Virus record (IMG/VR): IMGVR_UViG_3300013195_000006
Span: 1-24,519 of that record
Length of the DNA: 24,519 bases
Reading direction: 5' to 3' (one strand)
Source of the DNA: a virus
The position numbers and the translations under genes are program-made. The notes under the pieces were generated by a model. It had not been told where the DNA came from. It did not search any database and saw only the letters and a program-made list of their open reading frames with translations. Shown piece by piece: positions 3,667 through 20,557 of the stretch; positions within the stretch are counted from its first letter, which is position 1, and every line of letters starts with the position of its first letter.

Positions 3667-3667
3667 A

Positions 3668-4507: not shown

Positions 4508-4515
4508 TATTTATG
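4508..4515 (-). promoter_or_regulatory. T4-type late promoter (CATAAATA) for gp13-gp16
   Basis: The minus strand reads CATAAATATATAAAAG between the terminator and gp13. The CATAAATA element matches seven of eight bases of the T4 late consensus and lies 27 bases before the gp13 ATG. Because a terminator lies immediately upstream, this is the natural start of transcription for the neck and packaging operon. Confidence 0.72.
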
Positions 4516-4540
4516 AAAAAACCCTCCCGAGGGAGGGTTT
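4516..4540 (-). terminator. Rho-independent terminator after the 2120-residue virion protein
   Basis: On the minus strand the sequence reads AAACCCTCC-CTCG-GGAGGGTTTTTTC. This is a nine-base-pair stem (six GC-rich pairs plus three A-T pairs) with a four-base loop, followed by a run of six T. It begins eight bases after the stop codon at 4549. The plus-strand reading has no long T run after the stem, so it should act only on leftward transcription. It directly abuts the late promoter for gp13. It is the only clear intrinsic terminator I see in the window. Confidence 0.88.
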
Positions 4541-4548
4541 GATCTGTA

Positions 4549-7500
4549 TCATGCCTGGGATTCAGTCCAGGTGATTCTTGCGTTACAGTTCGTGTACTGA
4601 TATGATGTACTTGTGTATTCACCGTCAGGAACAACAACCACGGTCAGGGTATCTGGTCCGTTGGGGAAGGTGTAGTCTCCACCAAGGATTGAGTTACCGA
4701 GGTTGACAACCTCGCCCAGTTCCTGTTCAACCGTTTCGTCAGCACCAACTCGGAACTCATAAAGAACGATACCGTTATTGTATCTGTCATCGAGTAGTGA
4801 GAACTCAGTAGCAGTTGATGGGTTATGGTACATAACCTGTGATAGTGAAGGTGCATCCTGCTTAGTATAGAATGGCTTCGATAGGTCGGCGTTCAGAACC
4901 AGTCTAACAGTTGCGGACTTTCTCTGAGAGTCATTACCGTATCTGTTAACACTGGTTGCACCTGCTTGTGTACCACCATCAGAGAGAGAAACTGAAACCT
5001 GCTTCAATTGAAGTTGCATTCTATTGATCAGATCTCTTGTTCCTAGTTCACCAGTTAGACCAGCATCAACGGAAGGTGCAAGTCTGATAGTAAGAATTGG
5101 ATACTCTCTAGATGCCTGCTCGGGGTCACCATCAGTCTTCTGGTTTAGCATAAAGATCGTTGGTGATGATGCAGAGAAGAGGTATGCTTTATCATCCTCA
5201 AACTGACCATCCATGATAACGGAAGCACCCCAGTGGAACAGTGAAGGAGCAAACTTGATAGTAGCACTCTTATCACCGAAAGTCTTAGCTTCATATCTTG
5301 CAGGTAGGTTACCAGATCTGAAGTATGCTTCAGTAAACTCGTTGTTGTGGATGAAGGAATGGCAATAGAAGACATTACCATGCTGATCCTTGAATCCGAA
5401 ACGAATCTTACCACCACCATACCAGGAGTAATCAATGTAGCACATCTGCAGTCTTCTGATATTCAACTCATATCCAGACTGACCAGTTCCATCACAACGA
5501 TCCATGTTCCAGTTTGCTTGTCTGACCTTGGTATCTACAGTTAGAGTTGCAGTAATTCTATTTGCAGTAATACCGATATATGGTCTAGAAAGAATCAAAA
5601 GAGTGTTGGAAGGAACATCAGTGACCTTGTAAGACTGACCGCGAATGACAATCATATCACCCACAGACAACTGCTTGGTGAATGAAGTGCCATTACCATT
5701 GACAACCTGAGAATCATTAGTAACATTAATCGTTCCTGCAAGTTGTGCAGTTGATGATCTTCTGACGGCATACAGATATGTGCCATCATACTCATAGAAG
5801 AATCCATTTTGGTCATCAAACATACCAGCGCGGATAGCAGCATTCGTCCAACCATTCTTATTGAGAGTTGGGAATCCACCAGGAGCAGTATCTGTTGGAG
5901 TACCTGCCATCTGATAGGTGAATGTGAAATCATCAATAACAGTGTTGACTGTTAGTGACTCGCTATTGTAATGGTTAGTGCCCGAAGAAACGGTCACATC
6001 TTCCATGGTGATATTATCATTTTGTGCCAGGTTATGTGGTTTCCTGGTTACCACAGTTGCAAGGTTTCCTGTACCAGTTAGAGTCTTGACCTCAATAGGA
6101 GCATTGAAGTTGGTTGCAGTTGAATACTGCAGACCTTTACCTGACTGATAACGGAAGTATCTTCTGGTCTGTCTAACGATTGAGGAGTCAGCAGAAGTAC
6201 CTGGGTTGATCTCAACACCACCATCAAATGGTCTGTGGAGAGAGTATGAAGAAGGCTTCATGTACAACTTAGTTGGAACGATGTATTCCTCAGTGTTGTA
6301 GTTTTCAGACATGATGGTGAAGAAGTGCTTATCACCTGTACCAGTAGAGGTGATATCTCTATCTTCGTCAGCCTGTCTAGCAAAACCCTGCTCCCTATTA
6401 GTAGCAGTGTTAGTACCACTACCAAACATCTTATAGTAATCATTGCCCATGGCACCTACAAAGTAAGTGTTACCTGCAGTCAATCCACCAATCGCAGTAT
6501 CGGTATCTGGTTTAGAGTAAATGACTCTGGTTCCAGAAAGTAGTTTATCTGCATAACCTGGGAGATAGAATGTCTCACCATCAGTTGTATCTGGTGTCCA
6601 ATTAATAACTTGAGGGTTAGTTTGCTGTGGGTTGAATTCAATAACAACTGGTTCAAATGGATCTTCAATCGTCATCTCATTGGAATCTGTAATTGAAGTA
6701 ATATCTGCATCAACAATTCTTGACTCAAATCTCCACCACTTATGTCTATCATAGTAAGTTGAGTTACCCGTTGAATTGCCAAGTGAAATGGCATTGGTGC
6801 CTTGTCTAGAATGATCTAGAGTGTCATGTAGGGTTACTGTTGTTCTAGTCTGAACGTTTACATAATAGAATGAACCATCTTTCAGACCATTATAATCAGT
6901 AGGTAGGTTGGTGGTAATATCATTTTCTAGAGCATCATAATATCCTTGGTTTCTGTAATAGATACAATCACCAGTGTAAAAACCATGGTCCGAACCAAAG
7001 GAAAGAGTAGTTCCAGATACATTATTATGAGAAGTATAAGTGTTCCATCTTCTGGTGTTGGAGTAACCAATTCTTCTCTCATCATCAATTTGAATGTGCT
7101 CACCAGGAGTATATTGGAATGTGAAGTTTGTATCTAGTTCTGCACCAGTAACTTCTTCTTCACCAGGTTGATCCAAACGCTTCCAATATGCATCAGCAGT
7201 TGGCCAATAATATGATGAGCTGGTGGGATCATAACCTTTGTTGTTAGCATCACTATCTTGAATCAGATCATCATAGTTACCTAGGTTATCTCTGATTGCA
7301 ATCCAGTATGTATCATTACCATCATCATCCTTGACAATATCACCAGCAAAATATGTGGTATCAGTGTCCCAAATACCTCTGAAACGAGAACCTCGGATAG
7401 CATTTCTACTAATCTTGAAGACGTGGGTTGATCCATCACCTACACCGAGAATATCAACAGGTCTGTATCTTCTCCATGCATCAGAGATTGTGTTGTAAAG

Positions 7501-10500
7501 TTCAAATTCACCAGAACCTTCTTCACGTACATAATACTTTCTACCAAATTCAAGACCTTGAATGGGTGAAGCATCACCATATGCGTTATACTCAACAAAG
7601 TCACCAGTACGGAATCCATGAGAAGAGATAATAAGTCTATCTCTGTTTGTATTGATAGATGCGACCGCAGAACCATCAAAGACGATATCTCTAGTAGTAT
7701 ATGTAACACGACCAGAACCTTGTACTTGACCAAATACACTACCCGAAGTCAATGTATGAGTAGCATCTTCAGTGATGATATTACCATAATTATAATACTC
7801 TTTGATTTGTGTTCCTGCCTGAGCATTTGCTAAGCTGGTTGCAAGAGCAAAGAAGTTCTTAGAAATTCTGATTACATAATATGTGTCACCAGCAGTTAGT
7901 CTATTGTAAGTAGAACCATTCGGTGGTGCAGGACTTGCTCCGATAGCAACTGCAGTATTGATTGTACCATCTGTAATAGTATATGTTACTTCAGTACCAG
8001 TTGATAGACCATGGTTCTTGACATAGAAGTGACCATTCAGTTGATTTAGAACAGCCTGTGGTTTGAATGTAATCTTCTTACCAAAGATTTGTTGATCAGT
8101 ACCTAAATCATATCTAAGACCATCAGCATTCTTAGAACTAATAGTATATGATCCATCAATACTTCCTTCAACAGAAGTATTTTCAAAATAGTGGTTTGGT
8201 GAAGATGTTGCTGATGCCTGAGTTAGATTAATAACATCGCCCTCATATGTCGATGACAGAGAGAATCTATTAGTAGTTACATTCTTCACATAGTAAGTAT
8301 TACCATTTTGTAGTGGTTGAACATCTTGGTTACCATTAGAATTGTATCTAACTGACTGACCCTCAGTAAATCCATGATTGGGAATATAGAATGTATTCTT
8401 GAATGGATTGTAGTGGTTTCGTGCAACAAATCTAACTCTATAGTTAGTCGTATCAGTTCCCCAAGTTGTAAACCCTCTCAGGTTAGCAGATGCATCTTTT
8501 TGGAATCCATTGCCACCAGATGGCCAGTTGGGATCATTTTCATCTTGAATGATCTGAGCTGACTGATCAATATCGTTGGTATGATCTGCTTCTGCAAGTC
8601 TGACATGATCATCATTAATTGGATACATCCAGTACCAATAGTTTGTACTCATGTTACCCACAGCGTTACCTGTTGAGTACTGAGAATCAAAGCGATACTG
8701 CAACCAATATCTAGGATATCCCTCATCGTTTAGATTGAATCCATGATCTTCAAAGTACCATGTGTTTGCAGTTTCAATCTCTTCAATTTTGAAAACGAAA
8801 GTCTCTTCATTATCCTTATCAGATGAATCGTGTAGATCAAGAATAGGACCATTAGGTGTTCTTGAAATTGAGAATTCAAATGTCGATTGAGCACCGAAGC
8901 TATTAATTGCTGGATATCTTACATAGAAAACAGTCGATCTATAGGCTTGATCTGTGGTGTAATTCCAGTTTGATGTTGCTTCAGTGACGTTCATATTAAC
9001 GGATCCATCACTATAGAATACGACCTTATCACCTTCTTGAAGGTTTACCGTTTCAAATTCACATAGAATTCTATTTCTCTTTCCAGTAGAATTCGCATAT
9101 GTAGTGTTCAATGCACCCGCTGCATATGCTCGGCTATATGCAAGTTTGATACCTGGCCAGATCGAGAATGGAGCACCCCAAGTATAGTTAACACCCTGAG
9201 ACGTAATATCGACTTCAGCATTATTACCTGTTGGGTGATAAGGTCCAGTGGATTGTGCTGGTCTACCGCTTTGAGTTGTATGGAGTTTGATCGTATCTGT
9301 ATCAACAACCTCAATGTAGAACATTCCAACCTGAGTATCACTGGTTTTTGGAATGCCAGCTGGTTTTGTGTTAGGTGTAGGACCAACAGCAACACCTACA
9401 GGTTGACCATTCTTGAATTGATGATTTGGAATGCAGATTGTATTGAGAGAGGTATCAACTGCTTCTGGTCTGAAGTAACGCTGTCTTCTACCAAATGCTG
9501 CATCATTAGTATCACCAACTTCAATAATATTATAATGGAATGGATTCATTGCGGTAGATGCATATCCTCTACCAAATCTTCTGAATACCATCTGAGTACC
9601 AGAAGTTGCTCCACCTGTAACAGAAATTGGAACGTCATTAACAGCGTTTTGTGGTGAAGATGCTAGTTTGAATGTCTGGTCAGTTACGCGGATAATATAG
9701 TAAATACCATTACCACCGTTTGTAGAAGATGCGTCTGTACCAGAAGTTACTTTTACCGTCAGACCAGAAGAAGTGACACCCAGTTTAGAATCTAGGATGA
9801 TCATGTCACCAGTGACGAGATCATGATCTGCTAGAGTATCAGTCTCATCATAATATGTAAATGTATCTGTAGCAGGATCTACTGAAGAAACACCACCAAC
9901 TGCATTGATGACATAACGTCTTACATCAACACCCAGTGGTTCCCATAGTTCAACAGTTGGTGAGGTGATTTCTGAGATTGTCTCTTGGAAGTCAACTGCT
10001 CCAGGATTTGTGGCTGGATCTGGGTTACCAGATAGTACGAATGGTGCAGAAGTACCTTTGAACTCTTTTCTTTGAGATGCAATAGAGTTTGTAAGGTAGA
10101 AAGAAGTGCCAATAGAATAATTGGCTTTATATGGAGTTGTAATCGTCAGAGTCGAAGTCGTAGCTTCGTCAGTAGTAATTGCAGTGTACTCTCCAAGTTT
10201 AATAACAGATCCAACATAGTATCTACCAATAATTAGGTTGGTATATACTGTAGAAATGTCACCAGTTACTGTACAAGGTGCATTTGTCTGATAGACAAAT
10301 GTCTTATTTGATGGAACAGATTTAATAATAAATGATCCCTCTGCAATCTGATCTTCAAGACCTCTGATGTCAATGGGAATATTGGTCTGAAGACCATGGT
10401 CGGTTGAAGTTTTGACAGTAACTGACTTCGAACCGCTAGTAGAGGTTACCTCAGTAACATTTGCTACGGGAACATCACCTGACTGTGAATAGAAAGAAGG

Positions 10501-10911
10501 AACTTCGTTAATTCTTTCTAGAGTTTCCCACTTAGTAGACTGAAGACCATACTCAAAGTCGGTATCGATGAGTGTGTTTGGTGCCGAAATCCTTAGCTTA
10601 CTTACTGGATCAACAAAGGTTTCGGTTGGTTTGAACTCAGCTCCCTCCTCATCAAGAAAAATCTGAAGGTCGTCAGTATCAGCATGCCCCGCTGTACTCG
10701 TATCGAAATTCAGAGTAAACGTAGTCGTATCTGCCGCAGCATCATACGATCTAGCAGTCGTTCTCAGAGAAGTATCACCAAGCGCATAGATGGTCGTACC
10801 TCTAGTTGCGTTATTGATGAAAAGGAGTTTCTTCAGACTAATATGACCGTTGAGAGTAACGGTTTGTGCCGAAGCGTCAAATGTGTAATCAAAAATTAAT
10901 TTTTTTGCCAT
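4549..10911 (-). CDS. Giant virion structural protein (2120 residues), paralogue of the gene at 15522-20519
   Basis: The protein begins MAKKLIFDYTFDASAQTVTL and ends RITWTESQA, and no signal or membrane segment is seen. Residues about 1-140 match the paralogue at 20519-15522 (LIDTDFEYGLQS, KWETL). Residues about 1585-2120 match its C-terminal part: YFRYQSGKG, DDQNGFFYEYDG, YAVRRSS, DYSWYGGGKIRFGFKD, PSLFHWGASVIMDG, LINRMQLQLKQ and LGNSILGGD. The middle holds roughly ten degenerate units of the type HGFxTGxxVxY...GLxxGxxYYV, for example near 8390-8280, 7635-7520 and 6565-6450. One CBM5/12-like module (RGIWDTDTTYFAGDIV, residues 1178-1247) sits among them. The start has AGGAAAG four bases upstream (10922-10916). 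I recall the C-terminal block from marine T4-like virion proteins without a proven role; a baseplate- or fibre-associated protein is likely from its position before gp13. A terminator follows the gene. Confidence 0.8.
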   Translation of the reverse strand: MAKKLIFDYTFDASAQTVTLNGHISLKKLLFINNATRGTTIYALGDTSLRTTARSYDAAADTTTFTLNFDTSTAGHADTDDLQIFLDEEGAEFKPTETFVDPVSKLRISAPNTLIDTDFEYGLQSTKWETLERINEVPSFYSQSGDVPVANVTEVTSTSGSKSVTVKTSTDHGLQTNIPIDIRGLEDQIAEGSFIIKSVPSNKTFVYQTNAPCTVTGDISTVYTNLIIGRYYVGSVIKLGEYTAITTDEATTSTLTITTPYKANYSIGTSFYLTNSIASQRKEFKGTSAPFVLSGNPDPATNPGAVDFQETISEITSPTVELWEPLGVDVRRYVINAVGGVSSVDPATDTFTYYDETDTLADHDLVTGDMIILDSKLGVTSSGLTVKVTSGTDASSTNGGNGIYYIIRVTDQTFKLASSPQNAVNDVPISVTGGATSGTQMVFRRFGRGYASTAMNPFHYNIIEVGDTNDAAFGRRQRYFRPEAVDTSLNTICIPNHQFKNGQPVGVAVGPTPNTKPAGIPKTSDTQVGMFYIEVVDTDTIKLHTTQSGRPAQSTGPYHPTGNNAEVDITSQGVNYTWGAPFSIWPGIKLAYSRAYAAGALNTTYANSTGKRNRILCEFETVNLQEGDKVVFYSDGSVNMNVTEATSNWNYTTDQAYRSTVFYVRYPAINSFGAQSTFEFSISRTPNGPILDLHDSSDKDNEETFVFKIEEIETANTWYFEDHGFNLNDEGYPRYWLQYRFDSQYSTGNAVGNMSTNYWYWMYPINDDHVRLAEADHTNDIDQSAQIIQDENDPNWPSGGNGFQKDASANLRGFTTWGTDTTNYRVRFVARNHYNPFKNTFYIPNHGFTEGQSVRYNSNGNQDVQPLQNGNTYYVKNVTTNRFSLSSTYEGDVINLTQASATSSPNHYFENTSVEGSIDGSYTISSKNADGLRYDLGTDQQIFGKKITFKPQAVLNQLNGHFYVKNHGLSTGTEVTYTITDGTINTAVAIGASPAPPNGSTYNRLTAGDTYYVIRISKNFFALATSLANAQAGTQIKEYYNYGNIITEDATHTLTSGSVFGQVQGSGRVTYTTRDIVFDGSAVASINTNRDRLIISSHGFRTGDFVEYNAYGDASPIQGLEFGRKYYVREEGSGEFELYNTISDAWRRYRPVDILGVGDGSTHVFKISRNAIRGSRFRGIWDTDTTYFAGDIVKDDDGNDTYWIAIRDNLGNYDDLIQDSDANNKGYDPTSSSYYWPTADAYWKRLDQPGEEEVTGAELDTNFTFQYTPGEHIQIDDERRIGYSNTRRWNTYTSHNNVSGTTLSFGSDHGFYTGDCIYYRNQGYYDALENDITTNLPTDYNGLKDGSFYYVNVQTRTTVTLHDTLDHSRQGTNAISLGNSTGNSTYYDRHKWWRFESRIVDADITSITDSNEMTIEDPFEPVVIEFNPQQTNPQVINWTPDTTDGETFYLPGYADKLLSGTRVIYSKPDTDTAIGGLTAGNTYFVGAMGNDYYKMFGSGTNTATNREQGFARQADEDRDITSTGTGDKHFFTIMSENYNTEEYIVPTKLYMKPSSYSLHRPFDGGVEINPGTSADSSIVRQTRRYFRYQSGKGLQYSTATNFNAPIEVKTLTGTGNLATVVTRKPHNLAQNDNITMEDVTVSSGTNHYNSESLTVNTVIDDFTFTYQMAGTPTDTAPGGFPTLNKNGWTNAAIRAGMFDDQNGFFYEYDGTYLYAVRRSSTAQLAGTINVTNDSQVVNGNGTSFTKQLSVGDMIVIRGQSYKVTDVPSNTLLILSRPYIGITANRITATLTVDTKVRQANWNMDRCDGTGQSGYELNIRRLQMCYIDYSWYGGGKIRFGFKDQHGNVFYCHSFIHNNEFTEAYFRSGNLPARYEAKTFGDKSATIKFAPSLFHWGASVIMDGQFEDDKAYLFSASSPTIFMLNQKTDGDPEQASREYPILTIRLAPSVDAGLTGELGTRDLINRMQLQLKQVSVSLSDGGTQAGATSVNRYGNDSQRKSATVRLVLNADLSKPFYTKQDAPSLSQVMYHNPSTATEFSLLDDRYNNGIVLYEFRVGADETVEQELGEVVNLGNSILGGDYTFPNGPDTLTVVVVPDGEYTSTSYQYTNCNARITWTESQA
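6137..6234 (-). repeat. Direct repeat, copy 1, in the 2120-residue gene
   Basis: Two exact 20-base blocks of this segment recur in the paralogous gene: 6137-6156 equals 17638-17657, and 6215-6234 equals 17716-17735, at the same 78-base offset and in the same orientation. They encode the shared YFRYQSGKG and HRPFDGGVEI-type segments. They mark the start of the conserved C-terminal half of the pair. Confidence 0.9.
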
Positions 10912-10936
10912 TGTTCTTTCCTAGGTCTTTAATGCA

Positions 10937-10953
10937 GTGGGAGGGGAGTGGGG
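10937..10953 (-). other. C-rich leader tract before the 2120-residue gene
   Basis: The short gap 10912-10959 contains a tract reading CCCCACTCCCCTCCCAC in the message strand, that is, three G runs (GGG, GGGG, GGGG) on the opposite strand. It stands out in an AT-leaning genome. It lies between the stop of the CBM-repeat gene and the AGGAAAG ribosome binding site, and it cannot form an obvious terminator hairpin. Its function is unknown. Confidence 0.5.
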
Positions 10954-10959
10954 TAAAAA

Positions 10960-11853
10960 TTATAGTCCGAAGGTAATCGCATAACCAATTGCTTTGATGT
11001 TGACTGCATCTAGTTCACTTTGAGTGACGTTCTGTGCAGCATTGGTCCCTTCAGTAAAGAGTGTCCAATAACTCGTAGCATTTTCAGGGGTATTGTTGAT
11101 TGATTCTAAGATATTTATATAAGTACTAGGCGCACGGAACACTAGATCACCAGGATAATATGTGGTGGTAGAGTTCCAAGTCCCCTTCCAAGATACACCC
11201 TCAAGTACTAAGTCCCAGGAAGTCTGTGCTGGTGCATTGGGTGCAGTTCCAACTGTGGTAGTATTGGCAGCATATGCATAACCACCAAACTGTACTACAG
11301 CACCTGGAGCATATGTTGTTGCAGGATTATAATCTCCAAGAACAGTAAATCCTGTAGTCAGAATGTCCCAAAAATCATTTGGGGTAACAAGATTTTCATT
11401 TGGTTGCTTATTGTTGTTAGCAAGTTTGGCAATATAAGTATATCCACCATAGTTGACAACATCACCTGGTTGATATGCTGTCAAATTGCTCCAACTATCT
11501 TCAAATTGGAAACCACCAACAAAATCACTAAATTGAGTTGCATCAAATGCTTGTGTTGATGTATGTGCGGTAATGACACGATATGTATTATTACCGAACT
11601 TCACCAGATCATTCAACTTATAAAAAGTCGTGGCAGCCCAATCACCTCTAGGTTGAAGACCCTCAAGGTGCAAGCTCCAGTTGCTTAGATCCGATGAGTA
11701 CCAATTTGTCTCATTGCTTGCTGACGTATGATTAGTAGTACATACATAACTGTTTGCACCAAACTTCACAATATCGTCAATCTCATACGCAGTGGAAACA
11801 GTCCAGTTCCCACGCCACTTGAATTTTAATCTACCAAGTCTAAAATCTGCCAT
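10960..11853 (-). CDS. Virion protein of five tandem CBM5/12-like carbohydrate-binding repeats
   Basis: The 297 residues contain five repeats at about 13-64, 69-115, 119-166, 172-219 and 222-268. Each follows the plan G-x-W/Y, T-x-Y, GD/ND-x-V-x-F/Y-G, Y and a closing W (for example RGNWTVSTAYEIDDIVKFG and KGTWNSTTTYYPGDLVF). This is the pattern of the small chitin-binding-like CBM5/12 fold, in which exposed aromatics bind polysaccharide. No catalytic domain is present. The C-terminus (SELDAVNIKAIGYAITFGL) resembles the end of the fibre protein at 20556 (TAIAYAIALS). A likely job is surface glycan binding or decoration of the fibre tip. The start is 11 bases after the previous stop with no convincing Shine-Dalgarno sequence. 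A perfect late promoter motif (11119-11112) lies inside the gene. Confidence 0.78.
   Translation of the reverse strand: MADFRLGRLKFKWRGNWTVSTAYEIDDIVKFGANSYVCTTNHTSASNETNWYSSDLSNWSLHLEGLQPRGDWAATTFYKLNDLVKFGNNTYRVITAHTSTQAFDATQFSDFVGGFQFEDSWSNLTAYQPGDVVNYGGYTYIAKLANNNKQPNENLVTPNDFWDILTTGFTVLGDYNPATTYAPGAVVQFGGYAYAANTTTVGTAPNAPAQTSWDLVLEGVSWKGTWNSTTTYYPGDLVFRAPSTYINILESINNTPENATSYWTLFTEGTNAAQNVTQSELDAVNIKAIGYAITFGL
11112..11119 (-). promoter_or_regulatory. Perfect T4 late promoter motif (TATAAATA) inside the CBM-repeat gene
   Basis: The minus strand reads TATAAATA, identical to the T4 late consensus, within codons for Tyr-Ile-Asn (residues 245-247). It lies 201 bases before the start of the 2120-residue gene, which has no late promoter motif in its own short leader, and could drive that gene. 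Because the motif is inside coding sequence, chance occurrence cannot be ruled out. Confidence 0.45.
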
Positions 11854-11864
11854 TGTTTTTGGAT

Positions 11865-12227
11865 TTACTTAGGTCCGTTTGTGCTATAATTATATATGCG
11901 ACCCATTCTTGCAACCATCTGTCCATCTTCATCAATGAAGTATGAAAGATCTCTACTATCAAATTTATACTGATAATATGGATCAATGTCGGGGTCTTGT
12001 ACTACTGGTTGACCAGAAACTAAATCAAGAGTAAAATCATCTAGTGTTCTAAAGATTGGATTACCATTAGCATCTAGTTTGGTTTGTGTAACCAAATCGA
12101 TTGAGTCTGCGTCTTTGGGAGTTACTTTGGTATAAATGAGCATACCATCAGCATCTCTACGGAGAGCATGGAAATCAGTTTGACCTCCGCTACCTCTTTG
12201 TGCTAATGAAGAAAGTAAAATTGCCAT
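11865..12227 (-). CDS. Small hypothetical virion-associated protein, 120 residues
   Basis: The protein begins MAILLSSLAQRGSGGQTDFH and continues with ALRRDADGMLIYTKV, VTQTKLDANGNPIF, YYQYKFDSRDLSYFIDEDGQ and a C-terminal MGRIYNYSTNGP. It is soluble, acidic in the middle, and has no signal peptide. I do not recognise a domain with a known function, though similar small proteins seem to accompany fibre genes in marine T4-like phages. It starts two bases after the stop of the 316-residue fibre gene, so translation is probably coupled; the only purine-rich stretch (GGAAAA) is too far upstream to be a good ribosome binding site. A perfect late motif lies 143 bases upstream, inside the preceding gene. 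Context suggests a fibre-associated structural or assembly protein. Confidence 0.65.
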   Translation of the reverse strand: MAILLSSLAQRGSGGQTDFHALRRDADGMLIYTKVTPKDADSIDLVTQTKLDANGNPIFRTLDDFTLDLVSGQPVVQDPDIDPYYQYKFDSRDLSYFIDEDGQMVARMGRIYNYSTNGPK

Positions 12228-12229
12228 CT

Positions 12230-13180
12230 TTATACAACGATTTTCCAGTGTGTGCCATTATATACTAATAAAACTTCCCATCCATCATCATCAAAGATGA
12301 GTTGAGAATCCACCGTATCCTGATAATCCTTTAGATTTGATCCAGAATTGGTGGAGTCAATCGTAATATTATTTATACTCCATTTGTTTGTAACATCGAC
12401 AAATTTGATGAAATCACCAGTATTTGGTGTCTTCGCCAAGTCAACTGTGAAGGATCCATTTGTACTATCTAACATATAATTATCATTGTAATCATATGTT
12501 GTACCGTCAATAACGTATGCTTGGTTTCTTACAGAATCACCATAGTCAACATAGTTTAGAATTTCTTCTCTATCAAGAAGTTTCTCCCAATACAAGACGT
12601 TTTGAGGATTCTTCTTGGTTACATAATAAAAATTATCTGTATTCAAATACGCAATCTGACCAGCATAAACTGGAGTTGGTAACGAACTTCTATCCAGATT
12701 CAGTTGTTCTACCTGAACAGATCTGTCATCTAATTTAGTGTTATCAATAATATCATTTTCTAGTTTCGCTCTAGTAACATCACCATCAGCAATCTTTGCT
12801 GTGGTTACAGAAGCATCTGCAAGTTTTTGTGATGTAATAGAGTTATCAAGGAACTTTGAGTTCGTGATTGACCCGTCACTAACAATACCAATGTCAAGTT
12901 GATCACCAAAGATAATAGCGAAGAATGTGTCTGTTGGTTGAGGTGCTGTTGTGAAAGTAATTCTTTCGTTAGCAATATTATAATCAACCGTAGGTTCTAA
13001 AACACTATCGTTCAGAACCGCAAGCAACTGAAACTGCCCAGGGAATACACTTTCTCCACCAACTTGCATTAGGAAGATTGTCTGTACTCCATTGAATCCA
13101 GTTCCAGATCCAAACCTAGGAAGTGGAGAATCTAATTTTCGTTGATTGCCCGTTCTTGGGCTATTACCAATATAAGGCAT
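12230..13180 (-). CDS. Tail-fibre-like protein, 316 residues, with MPYIGN anchor and decapeptide repeats
   Basis: Three parts are visible. Residues 1-98 begin MPYIGNSPRTGNQRKLD and form a beta-rich region ending TFFAIIFGDQLDIG, similar to N-terminal domains of many marine phage fibre proteins. Residues 101-160 hold six ten-residue repeats of the type ADASVTTAKI. Residues about 165-316 contain a C-terminal domain (MLDSTNGSFTVDL, GDFIKFVDVTN, NNITIDSTNSGSNL, LLVYNGTHWKIVV) that resembles a common fibre tip domain. The same repeat type builds the giant fibre protein at 20556-24519, and the N-terminal motif is shared with the LamG protein just upstream. The ATG has AGAGGA at 13189-13184, and a late promoter lies 37 bases before the start. 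The tail-fibre role is inferred from modules and location. Confidence 0.75.
   Translation of the reverse strand: MPYIGNSPRTGNQRKLDSPLPRFGSGTGFNGVQTIFLMQVGGESVFPGQFQLLAVLNDSVLEPTVDYNIANERITFTTAPQPTDTFFAIIFGDQLDIGIVSDGSITNSKFLDNSITSQKLADASVTTAKIADGDVTRAKLENDIIDNTKLDDRSVQVEQLNLDRSSLPTPVYAGQIAYLNTDNFYYVTKKNPQNVLYWEKLLDREEILNYVDYGDSVRNQAYVIDGTTYDYNDNYMLDSTNGSFTVDLAKTPNTGDFIKFVDVTNKWSINNITIDSTNSGSNLKDYQDTVDSQLIFDDDGWEVLLVYNGTHWKIVV
12370..12377 (-). promoter_or_regulatory. Perfect T4 late promoter motif (TATAAATA) inside the 316-residue fibre gene
   Basis: The minus strand reads TATAAATA within codons for Ser-Ile-Asn near the end of the gene. It is 143 bases upstream of the 120-residue gene, which otherwise lacks its own promoter. 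An exact consensus match on the coding strand is suggestive, but the site is intragenic and untested. Confidence 0.42.
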
Positions 13181-13217
13181 TGTTCCTCTGTATGGTTCTA
13201 GGTACTTATGATAGAGT

Positions 13218-13225
13218 TATTTATC
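13218..13225 (-). promoter_or_regulatory. T4-type late promoter (GATAAATA) before the 316-residue fibre gene
   Basis: The minus strand reads TGATAAATAA. The TGA is the stop codon of the LamG protein (13226-13224), and GATAAATA matches seven of eight bases of the late consensus. It is 37 bases before the ATG at 13180 and is the only candidate in this 43-base gap. Confidence 0.65.
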
Positions 13226-15503
13226 AAACGGTAGCTAGATCTAACAATCTAACTGCGACATAACCAGTGTCAACTGCGGTCCCATCACTAATCTGTGTGA
13301 CCACAATATCAAAGTAAGATGCATATCTAATTACACGAACATGACATGGTGATGTGGGTCCATCATTAATTGTTGCATGAACAACATATGATTGTGAAGA
13401 GGCAAATGTTCCAGAGAAAGTTACTCTGTAAATTCCTGCTTGAGATCTCTGGACAGTCCATCCTGTAGTTCCATTCCAACCAGGAGTTGTTCCCAAAGCA
13501 ATAGATCCTTCACCAGAACTTGCTGGAGTTGGTGCAGTTGTCAGAGATCCTGTAGTTCCAAGTGGTCCTGTTGGTGGAGTGAAGTTTTCTGTATATCTAA
13601 CATAGTCAGATATCCTTACGTCATCGAGATATTTTGGAGTAATAGTAGATTCAGATTGGTATCCTGTTATAGACCAACCAGCATTACCAGACCTACCACC
13701 AATCGAAAGTTTCCCAGAAGGATTCAAAGAATAATTTGATACACTCTGACCAATCAATGCTGTATCTGGATTCTCATACTGCATGGCGTATCCATCGACA
13801 AATAGTAATACTCTACTATTCGTATTTTCTTTTGTAAGTGCAACGTGAACCCATCTTCCTGTGAGATATGTTGATAACCAACCTTTGTCTGAGTCAGAAG
13901 TTAATGTGTAAGAGTCTGAACCAAACTTGCACATAAACTTATGCTCATTATTTGTACTAGTAACGGAAGCGAGACCAAACTCAAGATTATCAAGAGTAGC
14001 ACCATAGTTTGATCCAAAATTGAATATTGAACTGGATCTAGCACCACCACTGTATAAAGGCAGTGATTCAAATTTAATCCAAGCCTCAAAAGTCCATTCG
14101 TCAGTCAAGAATGCAAAATCATCAGCATCACCATATTCGATTCCCGTATTAGTGTTTACGTATACGGACGATGCTCCATATTTTACTGAATTTGTGCTAA
14201 CCGCCGTCCCAGTTGTTGCTGAACCAGTAAGCGCATTTTGACTGGTATCATTTAGGTTAGTATCGTATGTTGCTCTAAATTGAACATCACTCCAATTATC
14301 ATCTATTGTTGCTGGTACTGGTGCTGTAATAGGATATGCTGCTGTTGGTGGAGCAAAGTTTTGACTTGGCGTATATCTTGCATACTGTGTAATTCTAAAG
14401 TCATCTAAATTATAAGCAGAACCAAGACTGAAGGTATTACCTGTAGTATTATTATGTGCTGCTCCAAAATAAGTTCTAGTACTATTAATCACATTCATTG
14501 GAAGGACACTAATATCAACATGGTGACCCTTATATATTCCATTCCAGTAGCAATGAATTTTTGAGTCAGCAGCAGTTCGCATCACAGTCAAATGATGCCA
14601 AGTTTCTTCTGTAATATCAGCACCAGGGGTAGTTTCCACAAAAATGCCATTGATGTTGGCATTATTATACCAATTTACATACTTATATCCACTTTGGTCT
14701 CTTCCAATGGTTATACCCTGATAGTTGGCATTGCCATCAAAGATGCCAACCAACCCATACTGTATAGCTCCAGCATCTAATGAGTCTTGTGCAAAATAAA
14801 TCCAAGTCTCTAGGGTCCAATCTGCGGACCAATCTATACATCCACCCCTTTTAGCACCGCTCCAGTTGGCTAAGGGTTGCCCTCGGTGATCAGATGATAT
14901 TACATTTGAATACCAGGTAATAGCATTATTGACAGTACTAGCTTGGGCTCTTAGAGATGAAGTACCAAACTTTACTGGAGAATTTACTCTACCAATGTGA
15001 TTACCAGAAGTATAGTAAACAGCCTTTTGATTTACGTGGTTTATAAAACTGTTATTTTCTCCACCAAGCTCAAAGTCAAATCTTACCTGAACATCATCCC
15101 AATTTACATCTACTGTTGTAGCATCTTCTACATTGTCAAATAAGTAAAATCTTTTCCACGCTGTTCCATCATGATAGTATGGAAGACCACCAATCTTTTT
15201 GATATCTCCTTGAGTACCTGCAACTGAACTCAGTTGATCTGCATTGAGTTTGAAACCAGCAGCATCAATAGTGTTAGTTGTTGAACTACCGTTATCGGTA
15301 ACACCTTGTAGATCACTAGTGGTAGCACCACCGCCACCACCAGTACCTGTGTCATCTTCTGGCACCCAGTTTGTGCCATTCCATTTTAGAACCTGACCTA
15401 TCTCAGGAGCGTCTGAAACTGTATCGACATCAGCCAATATATCAACCGACTTGGTTGATACATTGAGCTCTGTTACTTTAGGATTATTACCAATATAAGG
15501 CAT
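13224..15503 (-). CDS. Fibre/adhesin protein with two LamG (concanavalin-like) domains, 759 residues
   Basis: LamG domains are beta-sandwich lectin-like modules that bind glycans or proteins. Residues 1-60 begin MPYIGNNPKV and carry a fibre module LADVDT...QVLKWNGTNWVPED ending in five glycines. LamG domain 1 spans about 130-388 (WTLETWIYF, WHHLTVMR, LDDFRITQYARYTPSQNF, then PPT). LamG domain 2 spans about 400-650 (WTFEAWIKFE, RWVHVALTKE, LDDVRISDYVRYTENFTPPT). A C-terminal beta domain of about 100 residues (YRVTFSGTFASSQSYVVHA, ending VRLLDLATV) follows. This pairing of LamG_3-type domains is common in phage and bacterial surface adhesins. No catalytic residues are recognised. Both domains are complete, and AGGAAAG (15514-15508) supports the start. 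It lies between the two giant paralogues, and a host-recognition role is likely. Its stop codon overlaps a late promoter. Confidence 0.8.
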   Translation of the reverse strand: MPYIGNNPKVTELNVSTKSVDILADVDTVSDAPEIGQVLKWNGTNWVPEDDTGTGGGGGATTSDLQGVTDNGSSTTNTIDAAGFKLNADQLSSVAGTQGDIKKIGGLPYYHDGTAWKRFYLFDNVEDATTVDVNWDDVQVRFDFELGGENNSFINHVNQKAVYYTSGNHIGRVNSPVKFGTSSLRAQASTVNNAITWYSNVISSDHRGQPLANWSGAKRGGCIDWSADWTLETWIYFAQDSLDAGAIQYGLVGIFDGNANYQGITIGRDQSGYKYVNWYNNANINGIFVETTPGADITEETWHHLTVMRTAADSKIHCYWNGIYKGHHVDISVLPMNVINSTRTYFGAAHNNTTGNTFSLGSAYNLDDFRITQYARYTPSQNFAPPTAAYPITAPVPATIDDNWSDVQFRATYDTNLNDTSQNALTGSATTGTAVSTNSVKYGASSVYVNTNTGIEYGDADDFAFLTDEWTFEAWIKFESLPLYSGGARSSSIFNFGSNYGATLDNLEFGLASVTSTNNEHKFMCKFGSDSYTLTSDSDKGWLSTYLTGRWVHVALTKENTNSRVLLFVDGYAMQYENPDTALIGQSVSNYSLNPSGKLSIGGRSGNAGWSITGYQSESTITPKYLDDVRISDYVRYTENFTPPTGPLGTTGSLTTAPTPASSGEGSIALGTTPGWNGTTGWTVQRSQAGIYRVTFSGTFASSQSYVVHATINDGPTSPCHVRVIRYASYFDIVVTQISDGTAVDTGYVAVRLLDLATV

Positions 15504-15521
15504 CGTTCTTTCCTGAGTAGA

Positions 15522-18500
15522 TTATGCTTGAGATTCTGACCAAGAGAGTCTGGAGGAAACACGGAATGGTGAAGTTGCGTCAACTTCAGCAGTGTCAATA
15601 ACGTTGGCACAGATAGTCATAACATCTGGACCATTCGGGAACACATCGTCTCCACCCAAAATAGAGTTACCAAGGTCAACCAGTTCACTTAGATCAAACG
15701 CTGATGATACAGACAGTCTCTTACCGTCAGCGTTTTCAGTACCACCAGTAGCACGGAACTGATAAACAAGAACACCACCATTTACAGTATCGCCTGCCTC
15801 ATGTGGAATATATTGTGACAATGATGGTGTACCAACATCAGAATAAGTTAGATTACTGTTATTGGCATTCAAAAGAACACTGATTGTGGTGTCATGAGTA
15901 ACACTGACGCCCAATTCTTTTAGTTTGAGTTGCATACGATTAATGATGTCTCTTTCACCTAGATCTCCAATAATATTATTATCTACAGACGGTGCCAGAC
16001 GTACACTAATTAGTGGAATTAGATCATTGAGGTCAACATTGACACCTCCCGTTGCTGGACCACCAATACTAACTGCAGTTCCAGATCCTACCTCTGGATA
16101 TACTGCTGGAGCACTATATCCTTCCGAGATTTTGATATACACGTAAATATTGCTACCGCCATATTGAGTGTAAGATACGGTTTCACCATCCAATTCTCCT
16201 CCAGCAGTATAGAGTGGTGTACCAGTAGAGAATTTGGATGCATCGGAAGATAGGAATGAGAGTCTTACATAATATGTTCTATACCTACCCCACCCAGTAC
16301 TTGTAAGCACTGACGCTGCGTTTGTAGTTGCTGTACTAACATCACCGTTTGCAAATGATAATGCATTACCAGCTGCAGTGAATAGATAACTATCATCATT
16401 ATCAAATGTTCCATCCATGATAACTGAGGTTCCCCAGTGGAATAGTGATGGAACAAAGTCTGGTACTGCTTTGTTGAAGACTTCATATCTACCTGGAATA
16501 TTACCAGATCTCATGTACGCTTCATTGATTCTATTATTATGAATAAACTCATGCATATACTTGACATGCCCATAAGTATCCTTGAATCCAAAGCGAATCT
16601 TACCAGCACCATACCAAGAATAATCAAGATAGACCATTTGAATCTTATGAATATCTAGATTGAATGCACTAGGTCCAGTTCCATCTGCTTTATCAATATT
16701 CCACTGACTCTGTGGAACTTTTACATCAACGGTTTTAGTAAGTACCGCACCAACAGTTGTCAATCCTTGATATTTTGGTTGAATGTTTAATATTTTGTCC
16801 GATACAACAGATGTAACTTTATATGACTGACCACGAAGAACAATATAATCTCCAGCAACTAAATCTTTTGTAAATGATGAACCATTACCAGTAATGACAT
16901 TCCTACCATAAACAGCACTTACTGTACCACTCAATTGTTGAACAGAAGATCTTCTTACAGCATATAATTGTTTACCATCATACTCATAAAAGAATCCATT
17001 CTGGAAGTCAAACAATCCACAACGAACACCAGCGTTCTTATATCTGGCGATTGCATATTCAGGAATACCTGTTGGTGATGCCACAGTTACCGATCCAGAT
17101 GCACTGTAAGTAAATGTAAATGCATCAGGAACTGTAGCGACTTCATAGTTTGTTCCATTATATGGATTTGTAATATCGTAATGTGTGACTCCGTTAGTTG
17201 TAGCACTTACAAAGGTATGAGTTGTTGTGTCTGAAGAAGTTCCGACATTTACCTTGATAGTATTTGTGTCTGAATAGAGAACTCTCAGTCGTGCATTGCC
17301 ACCTGCAGGGTCACTTGATCTAGGATATGGGTGATTAGTCGCATGTCCATCTTTTGCACATGTAAATGTGATGCCACCCTCTGCAATTGAAATCTCTTCA
17401 TCGGTATTGATTCCATGACCATTAATGGTTAGAACCAAATCGCCTGTATTTGGATTATAGGTAGCTCCTGTTGGTGTAAGTGATTTTTGTTCTTCTACAC
17501 CTTGAATCAATACATAATTCCCTACTGTCAAACCATGTGGATATTCTGTAGTTGCAGTAACTGTAGATCCAGAACCAGAGATTGTTTTTAGTGGTCTTGC
17601 TGGGTTGAAATTAATAGCAACAGAACATTGAATACCCTTACCTGACTGATAACGGAAATACTTCCTAGTTTGGCGGACAATAGTTGAGTCTGGGGATTTA
17701 CCAGCAGTAATCTCTACACCACCATCAAATGGTCTATGTAGGAATTGACCATCTGCCCTAATGTTGATTTTAGTATCAACGTAGTGGGTTATTCCAGTTC
17801 TAGTTTCAGTCCTTTCTGAATCCAAAGTAAGTTCAGTATCATTGATTACCGAGACAACTCTACTTTCAATGAATGAATTGACTGTGGCTCCAGTAGTAGT
17901 ATATGCGAAAGTATCACCAACTTTATATGCAGAAGCAAATGCAGTATCTGTACCAATAACTTTTGATGATCCTTCAGTAATTGCTACCGTACCACCAGCA
18001 GCAACTCTACCATCAATCGTAGGAATCTTGACTTCATAAACTCCATTTGACGATGGTTGTGCTGTTATAGCATTGGTAGCCGATTGCCAGTCACTAATAC
18101 TAGCACATGGGTAGAAATGTTGATCATCTGCCACATATGCATAATAAGTTGATCCACTAGTGAGACCTGGTACTGCAGCTCCGCTAGTTACGGAGAATAC
18201 AATTGGTGAACCAGATTTTATACCATGACCTGTAGTTTCTTTGAAGTAGTATACTCCATTACCATCATCGATAATATCACTATTTGATGTGTTAGTAAAT
18301 TCAAGTACTCTAGCAGGAACTTTAGAACCAGCATTGATGGACGCAGTATTCGAAGTTACTGAACTTAGTTTGTAATAGTCATCAAAAACACCAGCAGTTT
18401 GGTCAGTTTCTATATCAATAGGTCCTGTTCCAGAACTTGAGAAAACAAATGGTTGTTGATTAGTGTTTTCTAAGGTAATTCTATCTCCGTTTACTACCTT

Positions 18501-20519
18501 TGCTCTAACTTCATTTTGACCAGATGAATTTGGCCAAGAAGCATAACTTCTATCTGCAATAACTTGGTTTACAATAGTTGCTGCCATTTGTGCAGTAGTC
18601 TGATTTGATCCAGAAGGTCCAAATGCACTACCACTTTCACTATCATCGGTCATAAAGAAAGTTTCAATTTTATAGTGCATTCCAGCATTATTATTTGAAT
18701 CTCTACTGTTAAGACTATAAGCTGAATATGACCATGTTCTTTGATACCAATTACTGTTTGTATTATTTGCAAGAGTTCCCCATCCAGTATTGAAAAGGGT
18801 AATATCTAATTCTAAAAATCCAGGACGATTTGAATAACCACCATATTGCCATACTGATGCATATGTATAATACCAACCATTACCTGCACTGATTGGGGTA
18901 TTTTGAGAAGTTCTACTGGTTCTAGAATTATAAAAACTAGTTAGTACTGATTTACTTCTAAAAGTATGATCATATAAGTATGTTCTATTGTATGTCGAAT
19001 CCACAGATGTAAAATCAGTATCGACCTGATGTACTTTAACTAAAAATGGTTGAAACGAATTATCTGTATGCTTCGTATAAGTTTTCCATGCTTTACCTGC
19101 CAATGTGCCAGGAAGACCATTATTGAGAGCCGTACTATTTGCAGTATAAAATGCACCGACATCTACTGCATTTCCTGTATATAATGTACCATAACCTTCA
19201 CCATAGGGATACCAATAATATCCCCCTCGATAAGAACCAAATTGTGACTTTACATCTACCATGAAGTAATTATTATCCCCATCATCACCATATCTCAATT
19301 GTTGATATTGGTAATCTGTACCTCCCCCATACCCACCAACATCGGTAGGACTAATACCATAACTACCATAGACATACACGGCGTATGGAGTATTATTATA
19401 ACGAGTATATATACTCGTCATCCTATCACCAGCAGTTGTTCTGATAGATTCACATGCAGTATTTACGGAATCAAAAACAGCTTGACAATTGGATTCACCT
19501 TGAGCAAGTGGGGCACCTACGGCTGGTGTAGGTAGAGTTCCCCCTGTACCAGGAGTAACATAAATTCTTTGATTATTAACTAGATTATGCTGCTTTAGGA
19601 AAAGTGTATTATCTGCTGTGTTGATGTTTGGACTACCATCTTGAGCATTTGCCGTTGTATTTGTAATTTCAAATTCTTTTTTACCAACAGTATTTGTTAC
19701 ATATATGCTAGTATTTTCTGATAAACCGTGAACAAAATCTGTAGTAAATGTCAGGGTAGATTCTGGAGATGCTTCATTTGTTGCTATACCAGTAGTTTCA
19801 ATATAATCAATATCAGAAGAAGCAAAAAAGGATCCTGGGATAATAGTAGTATATGCCTCTACAATATTTCCTGTTGAGTTCTGTACATCACCCGCTCGAT
19901 ATGAAAATTCTGTAGTAGATGAAACACCAAGAACTAGATACTTACCATTCGCTGTTCTTGATCCAGTTCCTTGAACTTCAATTGGATCTCCCGTAGATAA
20001 GTCATGAGGAATACCAGTCCTTACTGTGATGATGTCGTCATTTTGAATTGTATTGACTTGTTGAATCTCACCGATAGAAACACTAGCTGCTCTGGTATAT
20101 GTTGATGGGATGTTATCTACTAACTCAACTGTTTCCCATTTTGATGACTGAAGACCATATTCAAAGTCAGTATCAATCAAGTTCTCTGGGTTAGAGACTC
20201 TCAGTTTGTTAACTGGGTCAACAAAAGATTCTGAGAAATCAATTTTATCTTCTCTAATATCTAAGAAGATCTGTAGTTCATCATTAGTATTATGTGTTGA
20301 TGTATCAAACTCTAGTGTTAGAGTTGTCTCATCATCTGCTTGATCATATGATGTGCTTCCACCAGTACCTGCTCCAGCAAAGTTATAGATAATGGTGCTT
20401 CTGGTGGTATTAGTGACCAGCAAAAATACTCTCTGTGGGTGGTTACCAGGAACCTTTACAACCCCCGCATTCGCTGCCCCAGGAATAAACTGGTAGTTAT
20501 AAATTAACTTCTTTGCCAT
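15522..20519 (-). CDS. Giant virion structural protein (1665 residues), paralogue of the gene at 4549-10911
   Basis: The protein begins MAKKLIYNYQFIPGAANAG and ends RLSWSESQA. It shares residues about 1-135 (VDPVNKLRVS, LIDTDFEYGLQS) and about 950-1665 (YFRYQSGKG, FQNGFFYEYDG, YAVRRSS, DYSWYGAGKIRFGFKD, PSLFHWGTSVIMDG, IINRMQLKLKE, LGNSILGGD) with the 2120-residue protein downstream. The middle is different. After three degenerate HGL-type units comes a Tyr/Gly/Asn/Ser-rich region at about 340-670 with a single cysteine pair (NCQ...ACE), then more HGL-type units. An insertion of about 100 residues follows the FHWGTSVIMDG block. The role is probably the same as the paralogue, a baseplate- or fibre-associated virion protein with a variable exposed part. 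A late promoter (20557-20550) lies 30 bases before the start; no strong Shine-Dalgarno is close to the ATG. Confidence 0.8.
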   Translation of the reverse strand: MAKKLIYNYQFIPGAANAGVVKVPGNHPQRVFLLVTNTTRSTIIYNFAGAGTGGSTSYDQADDETTLTLEFDTSTHNTNDELQIFLDIREDKIDFSESFVDPVNKLRVSNPENLIDTDFEYGLQSSKWETVELVDNIPSTYTRAASVSIGEIQQVNTIQNDDIITVRTGIPHDLSTGDPIEVQGTGSRTANGKYLVLGVSSTTEFSYRAGDVQNSTGNIVEAYTTIIPGSFFASSDIDYIETTGIATNEASPESTLTFTTDFVHGLSENTSIYVTNTVGKKEFEITNTTANAQDGSPNINTADNTLFLKQHNLVNNQRIYVTPGTGGTLPTPAVGAPLAQGESNCQAVFDSVNTACESIRTTAGDRMTSIYTRYNNTPYAVYVYGSYGISPTDVGGYGGGTDYQYQQLRYGDDGDNNYFMVDVKSQFGSYRGGYYWYPYGEGYGTLYTGNAVDVGAFYTANSTALNNGLPGTLAGKAWKTYTKHTDNSFQPFLVKVHQVDTDFTSVDSTYNRTYLYDHTFRSKSVLTSFYNSRTSRTSQNTPISAGNGWYYTYASVWQYGGYSNRPGFLELDITLFNTGWGTLANNTNSNWYQRTWSYSAYSLNSRDSNNNAGMHYKIETFFMTDDSESGSAFGPSGSNQTTAQMAATIVNQVIADRSYASWPNSSGQNEVRAKVVNGDRITLENTNQQPFVFSSSGTGPIDIETDQTAGVFDDYYKLSSVTSNTASINAGSKVPARVLEFTNTSNSDIIDDGNGVYYFKETTGHGIKSGSPIVFSVTSGAAVPGLTSGSTYYAYVADDQHFYPCASISDWQSATNAITAQPSSNGVYEVKIPTIDGRVAAGGTVAITEGSSKVIGTDTAFASAYKVGDTFAYTTTGATVNSFIESRVVSVINDTELTLDSERTETRTGITHYVDTKINIRADGQFLHRPFDGGVEITAGKSPDSTIVRQTRKYFRYQSGKGIQCSVAINFNPARPLKTISGSGSTVTATTEYPHGLTVGNYVLIQGVEEQKSLTPTGATYNPNTGDLVLTINGHGINTDEEISIAEGGITFTCAKDGHATNHPYPRSSDPAGGNARLRVLYSDTNTIKVNVGTSSDTTTHTFVSATTNGVTHYDITNPYNGTNYEVATVPDAFTFTYSASGSVTVASPTGIPEYAIARYKNAGVRCGLFDFQNGFFYEYDGKQLYAVRRSSVQQLSGTVSAVYGRNVITGNGSSFTKDLVAGDYIVLRGQSYKVTSVVSDKILNIQPKYQGLTTVGAVLTKTVDVKVPQSQWNIDKADGTGPSAFNLDIHKIQMVYLDYSWYGAGKIRFGFKDTYGHVKYMHEFIHNNRINEAYMRSGNIPGRYEVFNKAVPDFVPSLFHWGTSVIMDGTFDNDDSYLFTAAGNALSFANGDVSTATTNAASVLTSTGWGRYRTYYVRLSFLSSDASKFSTGTPLYTAGGELDGETVSYTQYGGSNIYVYIKISEGYSAPAVYPEVGSGTAVSIGGPATGGVNVDLNDLIPLISVRLAPSVDNNIIGDLGERDIINRMQLKLKELGVSVTHDTTISVLLNANNSNLTYSDVGTPSLSQYIPHEAGDTVNGGVLVYQFRATGGTENADGKRLSVSSAFDLSELVDLGNSILGGDDVFPNGPDVMTICANVIDTAEVDATSPFRVSSRLSWSESQA
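17638..17735 (-). repeat. Direct repeat, copy 2, in the 1665-residue gene
   Basis: This is the partner of 6137-6234, with identical 20-base blocks at 17638-17657 and 17716-17735. The two copies are about 11.5 kb apart in direct orientation and flank the LamG, small fibre, 120-residue and CBM-repeat genes. Confidence 0.9.
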
Positions 20520-20549: not shown

Positions 20550-20557
20550 TATTTATC
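20550..20557 (-). promoter_or_regulatory. T4-type late promoter (GATAAATA) before the 1665-residue gene
   Basis: The minus strand reads TGATAAATATA. The TGA (20558-20556) is the stop codon of the giant fibre gene, and GATAAATA is one base from the late consensus. The start codon of the next gene is 30 bases further on. Confidence 0.68.

Follow-up and report, generated by a model that had tools for sequence, protein, structure and literature searches.

Two giant and related virion structural proteins, hereafter A and B, are encoded on the minus strand of the window, by which we mean the whole stretch of DNA analysed (24,519 nucleotides). The reading that we favour, with a probability of about 0.75, is that A would be the resident copy of the phage lineage, that B was most likely acquired, and that the module would be altered by homologous recombination between phages at its conserved ends. 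The homology, the subfamily membership, the synteny and the swap tracts from which this reading is drawn were observed in the analysis. The modular exchange of putative host-recognition genes is a known process, of which the protein family, the located joint and the pair from two subfamilies are a new instance. The link between genes and host range is poor in cyanophages, and a recurrent located joint flags which uncharacterised structural genes move as units.

The window and its gene order

The window takes up an entire virus record of 24,519 bases and represents a fragment of a T4-like cyanophage. It belongs to a marine cyanobacterial virus, the nearest named phage being Synechococcus phage S-BM3 (Kyanoviridae, 169 kb). 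PHROG and Pfam matches identify the gp13-gp14-gp15-gp16 neck and small terminase genes in a T4-like order, as in Kyanoviridae (T4-like cyanomyoviruses), and the gp13-gp16 region is syntenic with that of S-BM3 (66-77% amino acid identity). Along the minus strand, the upstream half contains a fibre-type gene rich in repeats, which extends beyond the contig, followed by B, a 759-aa gene, a 316-aa hoc-like/fibre gene and a 120-aa gene; the downstream half continues with a CBM_5_12 repeat gene, A, gp13, gp14, gp15, gp16, a DUF6321 gene and a gene cut by the contig end (Table 1).

A preliminary description of this DNA had placed four fibre genes between A and B. Two of them, the CBM_5_12 gene and the 316-aa gene, do match tail or fibre PHROGs, but the 120-aa and 759-aa genes match only PHROGs of unknown function, and no Pfam match to LamG, the domain attributed to the 759-aa gene, was found. 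A search for close relatives of the 759-aa gene gave mostly sequences that have just its first ~60 residues in common with it.

Two further features were noted in the neck genes. At 470 aa, the gp14 protein (2254-3666) exceeds the about 300 aa of S-BM3-type relatives by a Gly/Thr-rich insert of ~170 residues, which is also present in the related locus L005 and is strongly divergent in the related locus L004 (60-76% nt). Towards its C-terminus, the gp15 protein (1442-2254) bears a dockerin-like motif, DQNNDGVVNAADTALLQDF, whose match to Pfam Dockerin_1 (E 0.011) lies below the cut-off.

Table 1. Features of the window discussed in the text, with their coordinates and the evidence for them.
Feature	Coordinates	Strand	Evidence and remarks
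Protein A, giant virion structural protein, 2,120 aa	4549..10911	-	ORF; PHROG 5838/1645; putative resident copy directly upstream of gp13
A N-block, residues 1-289	10045..10911	-	Residues 1-90 a confident beta domain; near-invariant LIDTDFEYGLQSTKWET motif at 114-130
A middle, residues 359-1505	6397..9837	-	8 copies of ~58-aa beta-rich repeat; profile search
A C-block, residues 1545-2120	4552..6279	-	All-beta; C-terminus WTESQA
A tract replaced by diverged allele in L005 (codons ~130-2,115, 5.96 kb)	4565..10522	-	58-71% nt inside, 95-100% outside
Protein B, 1,665 aa, second family member, different subfamily	15522..20519	-	ORF, PHROG, N- and C-block trees
B N-block, residues 1-290	19650..20519	-	BLASTP
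B C-block, residues 914-1665	15525..17780	-	BLASTP; C-terminus WSESQA
~108-aa module within B C-block, residues 1009-1116	17172..17495	-	Not in A; alignments
Exact 20-bp repeat pair 1	A 6137-6156 / B 17638-17657		Within chance for conserved coding sequence
Exact 20-bp repeat pair 2	A 6215-6234 / B 17716-17735		Within chance for conserved coding sequence
CBM_5_12 repeat protein, 297 aa	10960..11853	-	Pfam CBM_5_12; tail-fibre PHROG 9851; syntenic in A-type loci
120-aa protein	11865..12227	-	Matches only PHROG 8997 (unknown function); syntenic in A-type loci
Tail/fibre-type protein, 316 aa	12230..13180	-	Tail/fibre PHROGs; hoc-like per S-BM3 annotation
759-aa protein (LamG gene of the preliminary description)	13224..15503	-	PHROG 16570 (unknown function); slot with unrelated genes in relatives
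Repeat-rich fibre-type gene, directly upstream of B	20556..24518	-	5' end beyond contig
Neck genes gp14 and gp13, anchor flank downstream of A	2254..4480	-	PHROG, Pfam
Intrinsic terminator hairpin (4519-4540) and late-promoter-like motif CATAAATA (4508-4515), between A and gp13	4508..4540	-	Fold z-score -5.6; conserved in A-type relatives

Shared and variable parts of A and B

By BLASTP, the N-terminal block (N-block) of A (residues 1-289) is 41% identical to that of B (residues 1-290; E 2e-54), and the C-terminal block (C-block) aligns in three segments, A1545-1639/B914-1008 (52%), A1645-1923/B1117-1391 (54%, E 2e-87) and A1938-2120/B1502-1665 (37%). The two proteins had been described as sharing their ends and differing completely in their central parts. 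Both do terminate in W-[TS]-ESQA, and the C-block does exceed 500 aa, but the N-terminal homology reaches residue ~290 and not 140. Complete difference is too strong a term for the middles, since a beta-rich repeat of ~58 aa is common to both, the profile search placing 8 good copies between residues 359 and 1505 of A and 2 in B (304-332 and 763-803). A peptide-pattern search for relatives of the middle of B gave none; whole-protein alignment, though, shows that most of the B clade matches B over its first ~1,000 residues, at 37-46%.

The ~108-aa module in the C-block of B is missing from the B-type relatives L050, L053, L058, L064, L080, L112 and L160, and is spanned by the alignments with L103, L104 and L125. 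Longer proteins have more repeats (r=0.79 across 113 relatives). Taking into account that repeat count tracks length and that the insert of B varies among B-type relatives, the length variation of the family is due in good part to repeat number, and also to added modules.

The exact 20-base repeats from which exchange between the two genes had been proposed are present in the shared blocks. However, when synonymous codons were shuffled, a shared word of at least 20 nt appeared in 23% of trials, and for this reason the repeats are not evidence of exchange. A separate DNA- or RNA-level signal in the shared blocks, such as a recombination element, was also considered and dropped, its conservation going little beyond coding expectation: synonymous-codon conservation over 113 genes was only slightly above that expected at the most conserved motifs (0.54 vs 0.44 at residues 1560-1574; 0.56 vs 0.42 at 1590-1604), and Rfam gave no match.

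A broad phage family

Viral contigs were scanned with the C-block and with the N-block, and the best 80 loci were listed per scan, some of them overlapping on one contig. Proteins containing both blocks, of 1,095-3,400 aa, were found in at least 147 loci, and two family genes per locus were seen, among the matches listed, just in the window and in the near-identical loci L026/L028. To judge from these scans, the N-middle-C protein forms a broad family among phages, with one copy per locus in nearly all cases. The architecture predicted for it has conserved ends, an N-terminal head and an all-beta C-block that terminates in E[SA]QA, and between them a variable middle to which beta-rich tandem repeats contribute. 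In the actinophage DSL-LC01 (L164 7046-18092), N-block and C-block are found on two adjacent ORFs of 824 and 2,853 aa.

Both proteins match the profiles of PHROG 5838 / 1645 (T4-GC 863), with E values of 8e-182 (A) and 6e-164 (B) for phrog_5838 and of 9e-44 and 1e-41 for phrog_1645. Isolates with a family gene include S-PM2, Syn1, S-RIM44, S-RSM4 (about 1,100 aa) and S-CAM1 (1,673 aa), and the family extends to the podovirus-annotated genome ctQRb9. The cyanomyovirus proteins of T4-GC 863 / PHROG 5838 (S-PM2 p173, Syn1_216, S-CAM1 SXBG_00214) have the same N- and C-block and lie directly after fibre or structural genes, the S-CAM1 copy preceding gp13, like A. Those phages carry a single family protein, with a length of about 1,095-1,673 aa; in the window there are two such proteins (1,665 and 2,120 aa), and A has a long repeat middle.

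Origin of the A/B pair

Separate trees were made for the N-block and the C-block, with 113 proteins each. A falls in the same 8-row clade (A plus seven relatives) in both, with support 100/100, and B in the same 13-row clade (B plus twelve relatives), with support 99 (N) and 97 (C); most of the other main clades also have identical members in the two trees. Because both trees give matching clades, the N and C ends have stayed together within subfamilies. From end to end, A shares 52-87% of its amino acids with the seven A-type relatives (54% with S-BM3), and the nearest relatives of B found, the single-copy L103, L104 and L125, reach 50-53%.

Each type also occurs alone. A single A-type copy is present in the complete genome of S-BM3 and in four longer A-type contigs, a single B-type copy in six B-type contigs, and the complete genome of S-CAM1 has one family copy. 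The hoc-like/120-aa/CBM/A/gp13 context is constant in A-type loci wherever the contig reaches, and B-type genes lie in other surroundings, directly behind a large ORF that is a tail fibre in the four tested. The B-type contigs were also considered as candidates for non-T4 phages, but one of them carries a T4-type tail-tube cap. The S-BM3 terminase and portal found no match in the six B-type contigs, nor in two A-type contigs, all of which may be fragments. The slot upstream of hoc is itself variable between related phages: S-BM3 and L170 share about 53% over ~4 kb between flanks at ~94%.

Thus, A and B belong to two old subfamilies, each occurring alone elsewhere, and the pair is best read as co-resident and not as a local duplication; it also illustrates that related genes within a single phage may have other origins than duplication in place. 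By its synteny, A would be the resident copy of the phage lineage, the last gene of the hoc-like/120-aa/CBM/A row, before the terminator and gp13. Since B belongs to the other old subfamily and lies beside a fibre gene in a variable slot, it was most likely acquired by transfer, and it would have entered the slot upstream of the resident module, probably together with its fibre gene.

An old duplication in the phage's own lineage, after which most relatives would have lost one copy, is compatible with the gene trees and with the existence of a second double-copy phage (L026/L028). We nevertheless judge it unlikely, as B groups with single-copy genes found in other contexts, it is missing from those A-type relatives whose upstream sequence is long enough, and the L026/L028 pair is likewise made of members of two different subfamilies.

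The preliminary description had instead proposed a paralogous pair recombining through its shared blocks, giving rise to a chimera and deleting the four genes in between. The blocks do lie in the same orientation, about 11 kb apart, and there is an engineered analogue, the Ackermannviridae phage S117 with a fifth tail spike, which recombined tsp4 with tsp5 or lost tsp3 (PMC11414711). This proposal is nonetheless very unlikely. The longest words shared by the two genes, 20 bp, are within chance, and the two genes belong to separate subfamilies whose N and C clades agree. None of the 113 tree proteins was seen to be a chimera pairing an N-block from one subfamily with a C-block from the other. 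Nor was there any signal of A-B gene conversion: the B of the window is as close or closer to the A of other phages (51-53% nt in the N-block, 58-61% in the C-block) than to the A of its own genome (50.2% and 58.2%). Relatives always carrying both genes intact, with no conversion, had been named as the finding that would speak against the proposal; the lack of conversion was indeed found, but the relatives carry A only or B only. Co-residence of two subfamilies, with B probably acquired, is the reading that we retain.

Exchange of the module between phages

One exchange is seen between the window and L005, a metagenome contig and as such liable to assembly chimerism. The two share 91-100% nt, mostly 97-100%, over the region that starts with the DUF6321 gene and takes in gp13 and the spacer. 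Codons 1 to about 130 of A are about 95-97% identical, the last ~5 codons are also near-identical, and the tract in between is replaced by a diverged allele (Table 1). One edge of this tract coincides with the end of the near-invariant LIDTDFEYGLQSTKWET motif and the other lies within the final ~5 codons (ESQA), both joints falling in identical stretches of 74-84 nt. L004 behaves in reverse with respect to L005, being nearer to the window in the body and farther in the flank, and the contrast of informative sites among the window, L005 and L004 gave Fisher p values of about 1e-175 (3' flank) and 1e-12 (5' flank).

Analogous steps occur in other phages. S-BM3 and L166, the latter also a metagenome contig with the same liability, share about 66-88% through A, a difference of some 20%, and then 97-98% from the last codons on, for about 1.5 kb. 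Two cultured isolates of one species, S-RIM44 Sn_13_0910 and Sn_08_0709, differ in a 10.8-kb block (50-80%) comprising the family gene and, upstream of it, two genes of structural or fibre type, with flanks mostly at 92-100%. The edge of this block lies seven codons inside the stop of the family gene. Over this stretch, Sn_08_0709 and phage Syn1 are identical. A similar identity step separates S-RSM4 from S-H9-1. Near-identical flanks, a replaced interior and sharp edges are therefore found at both edges in window/L005 and in the S-RIM44 isolates, and at the 3' edge in S-BM3/L166, and a joint at the conserved ESQA/EAQA end is common to three to four cases.

Host-recognition proteins often evolve fast, and the differing bodies might in principle be ascribed to diversifying selection acting in place, with no recombination. 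The chance of this is almost negligible: in L005 and S-RIM44 identity drops from 95-100% to about 50-75% within a few bases, silent sites included, and L004 and L005 switch as nearest relative between flank and body. Assembly chimerism of the window or of the comparison contigs would be suggested by their metagenomic source and by the identical stretches in which the L005 joints fall. It is, however, extremely unlikely, because the 20 nt at most that A and B have in common would not suffice for a common misjoin, and because the same 3' joint appears in the cultured and completely sequenced S-RIM44 isolates, S-BM3 being an isolate as well.

Recombination between different phages is thus our preferred explanation of the swaps. 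Cyanophages are known for high recombination (PMC6722890), and this, together with the tracts described, suggests that homologous recombination in conserved stretches produced them. The module would change through joints placed in nearly identical stretches, at the 3' side in the last 5-8 codons of the gene and the spacer behind, and at the 5' side in one of two places, directly behind the conserved N-terminal motif (codon ~130) or beyond the fibre genes upstream. The resulting virion protein would have old ends and a new body. Given that a strong terminator and a late-promoter-like motif follow the end of A before gp13, the 3' joint coincides with a likely transcription-unit border. The earlier view of a cassette able to gain, lose or swap parts is in this sense borne out, its conserved ends hosting the joints in L005, S-RIM44 and S-BM3.

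Other differences were seen outside these tracts. The S-RIM44 isolates also differ elsewhere (L329 28201-28800 and 30301-32100), with a carbamoyltransferase insertion in Sn_13_0910 only. Part of the hoc-like gene of the window (12601-12900) is 74% identical to L004 between stretches at 94-99%, and may be a further swapped patch.

Likeness to known systems

The exchange of T4-type tail-fibre adhesins was reportedly described by Tetart and colleagues in 1998, with conserved motifs that are said to flank the variable parts and to serve as recombination joints. The exchange seen here works in a like manner, and takes in almost all of the body of a 2,120-aa protein. In metaviromic islands, fibres and carbohydrate-binding proteins vary among otherwise near-identical marine phages (Mizuno et al. 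2014, PMC3909814), and the T7-like fibres in such islands keep their N-terminus and vary downstream (PMC3909814). Compared with these, the joints in the window are located, one within the N-terminal block and one at the final codons of the gene, and the protein concerned is another and far larger one. In the branched tail spikes of Ackermannviridae, several receptor-binding proteins have conserved N-terminal parts, and acquisition and recombination alter the set (PMC11414711). The receptor-binding role of those tail spikes is known, whereas that of A and B is putative, and no A-B recombination was seen.

Putative function

Family members are annotated as virion structural proteins, PHROG 5838 being a "virion structural protein" filed under head and packaging, and the S-RSM4 record notes that its copy resembles an S-PM2 structural protein. 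A domain of ~80 residues in the N-block resembles a phage endosialidase domain (Foldseek, E 2e-4), and the C-block has a short match to the F2-pyocin side fibre (63 positions, E 7e-6). Beyond this one short stretch no solved homologue of the C-block was found, and none covering the whole protein. The C-block model has a pTM of 0.60 and is confident mainly in its first half, and its PDB matches are not meaningful.

Taking into account the fibre and carbohydrate-binding neighbours, the beta-rich repeats, the endosialidase-like domain and the pyocin match, an adhesin or fibre part is favoured, with a putative role in attachment. The N-block and the ESQA end would be docking parts, and a swap may alter host range. 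The part played in host range can be tested directly in pairs of natural isolates, for example with the two alleles of S-RIM44. A wider proposal, a doubtful possibility in our opinion, is that of a plug-in attachment family of marine phages, in which the docking ends would fit many virions, the last codons and the spacer would act as a standing recombination joint, and phages with two subfamilies would show two receptor specificities.

As a separate observation, the C-block model (4552-6264) matched, in BFVD, proteins of the giant viruses Mimivirus AB-566-O17, Bodo saltans virus and Pithovirus with a probability of 1.0 and TM-scores of only 0.3-0.4.
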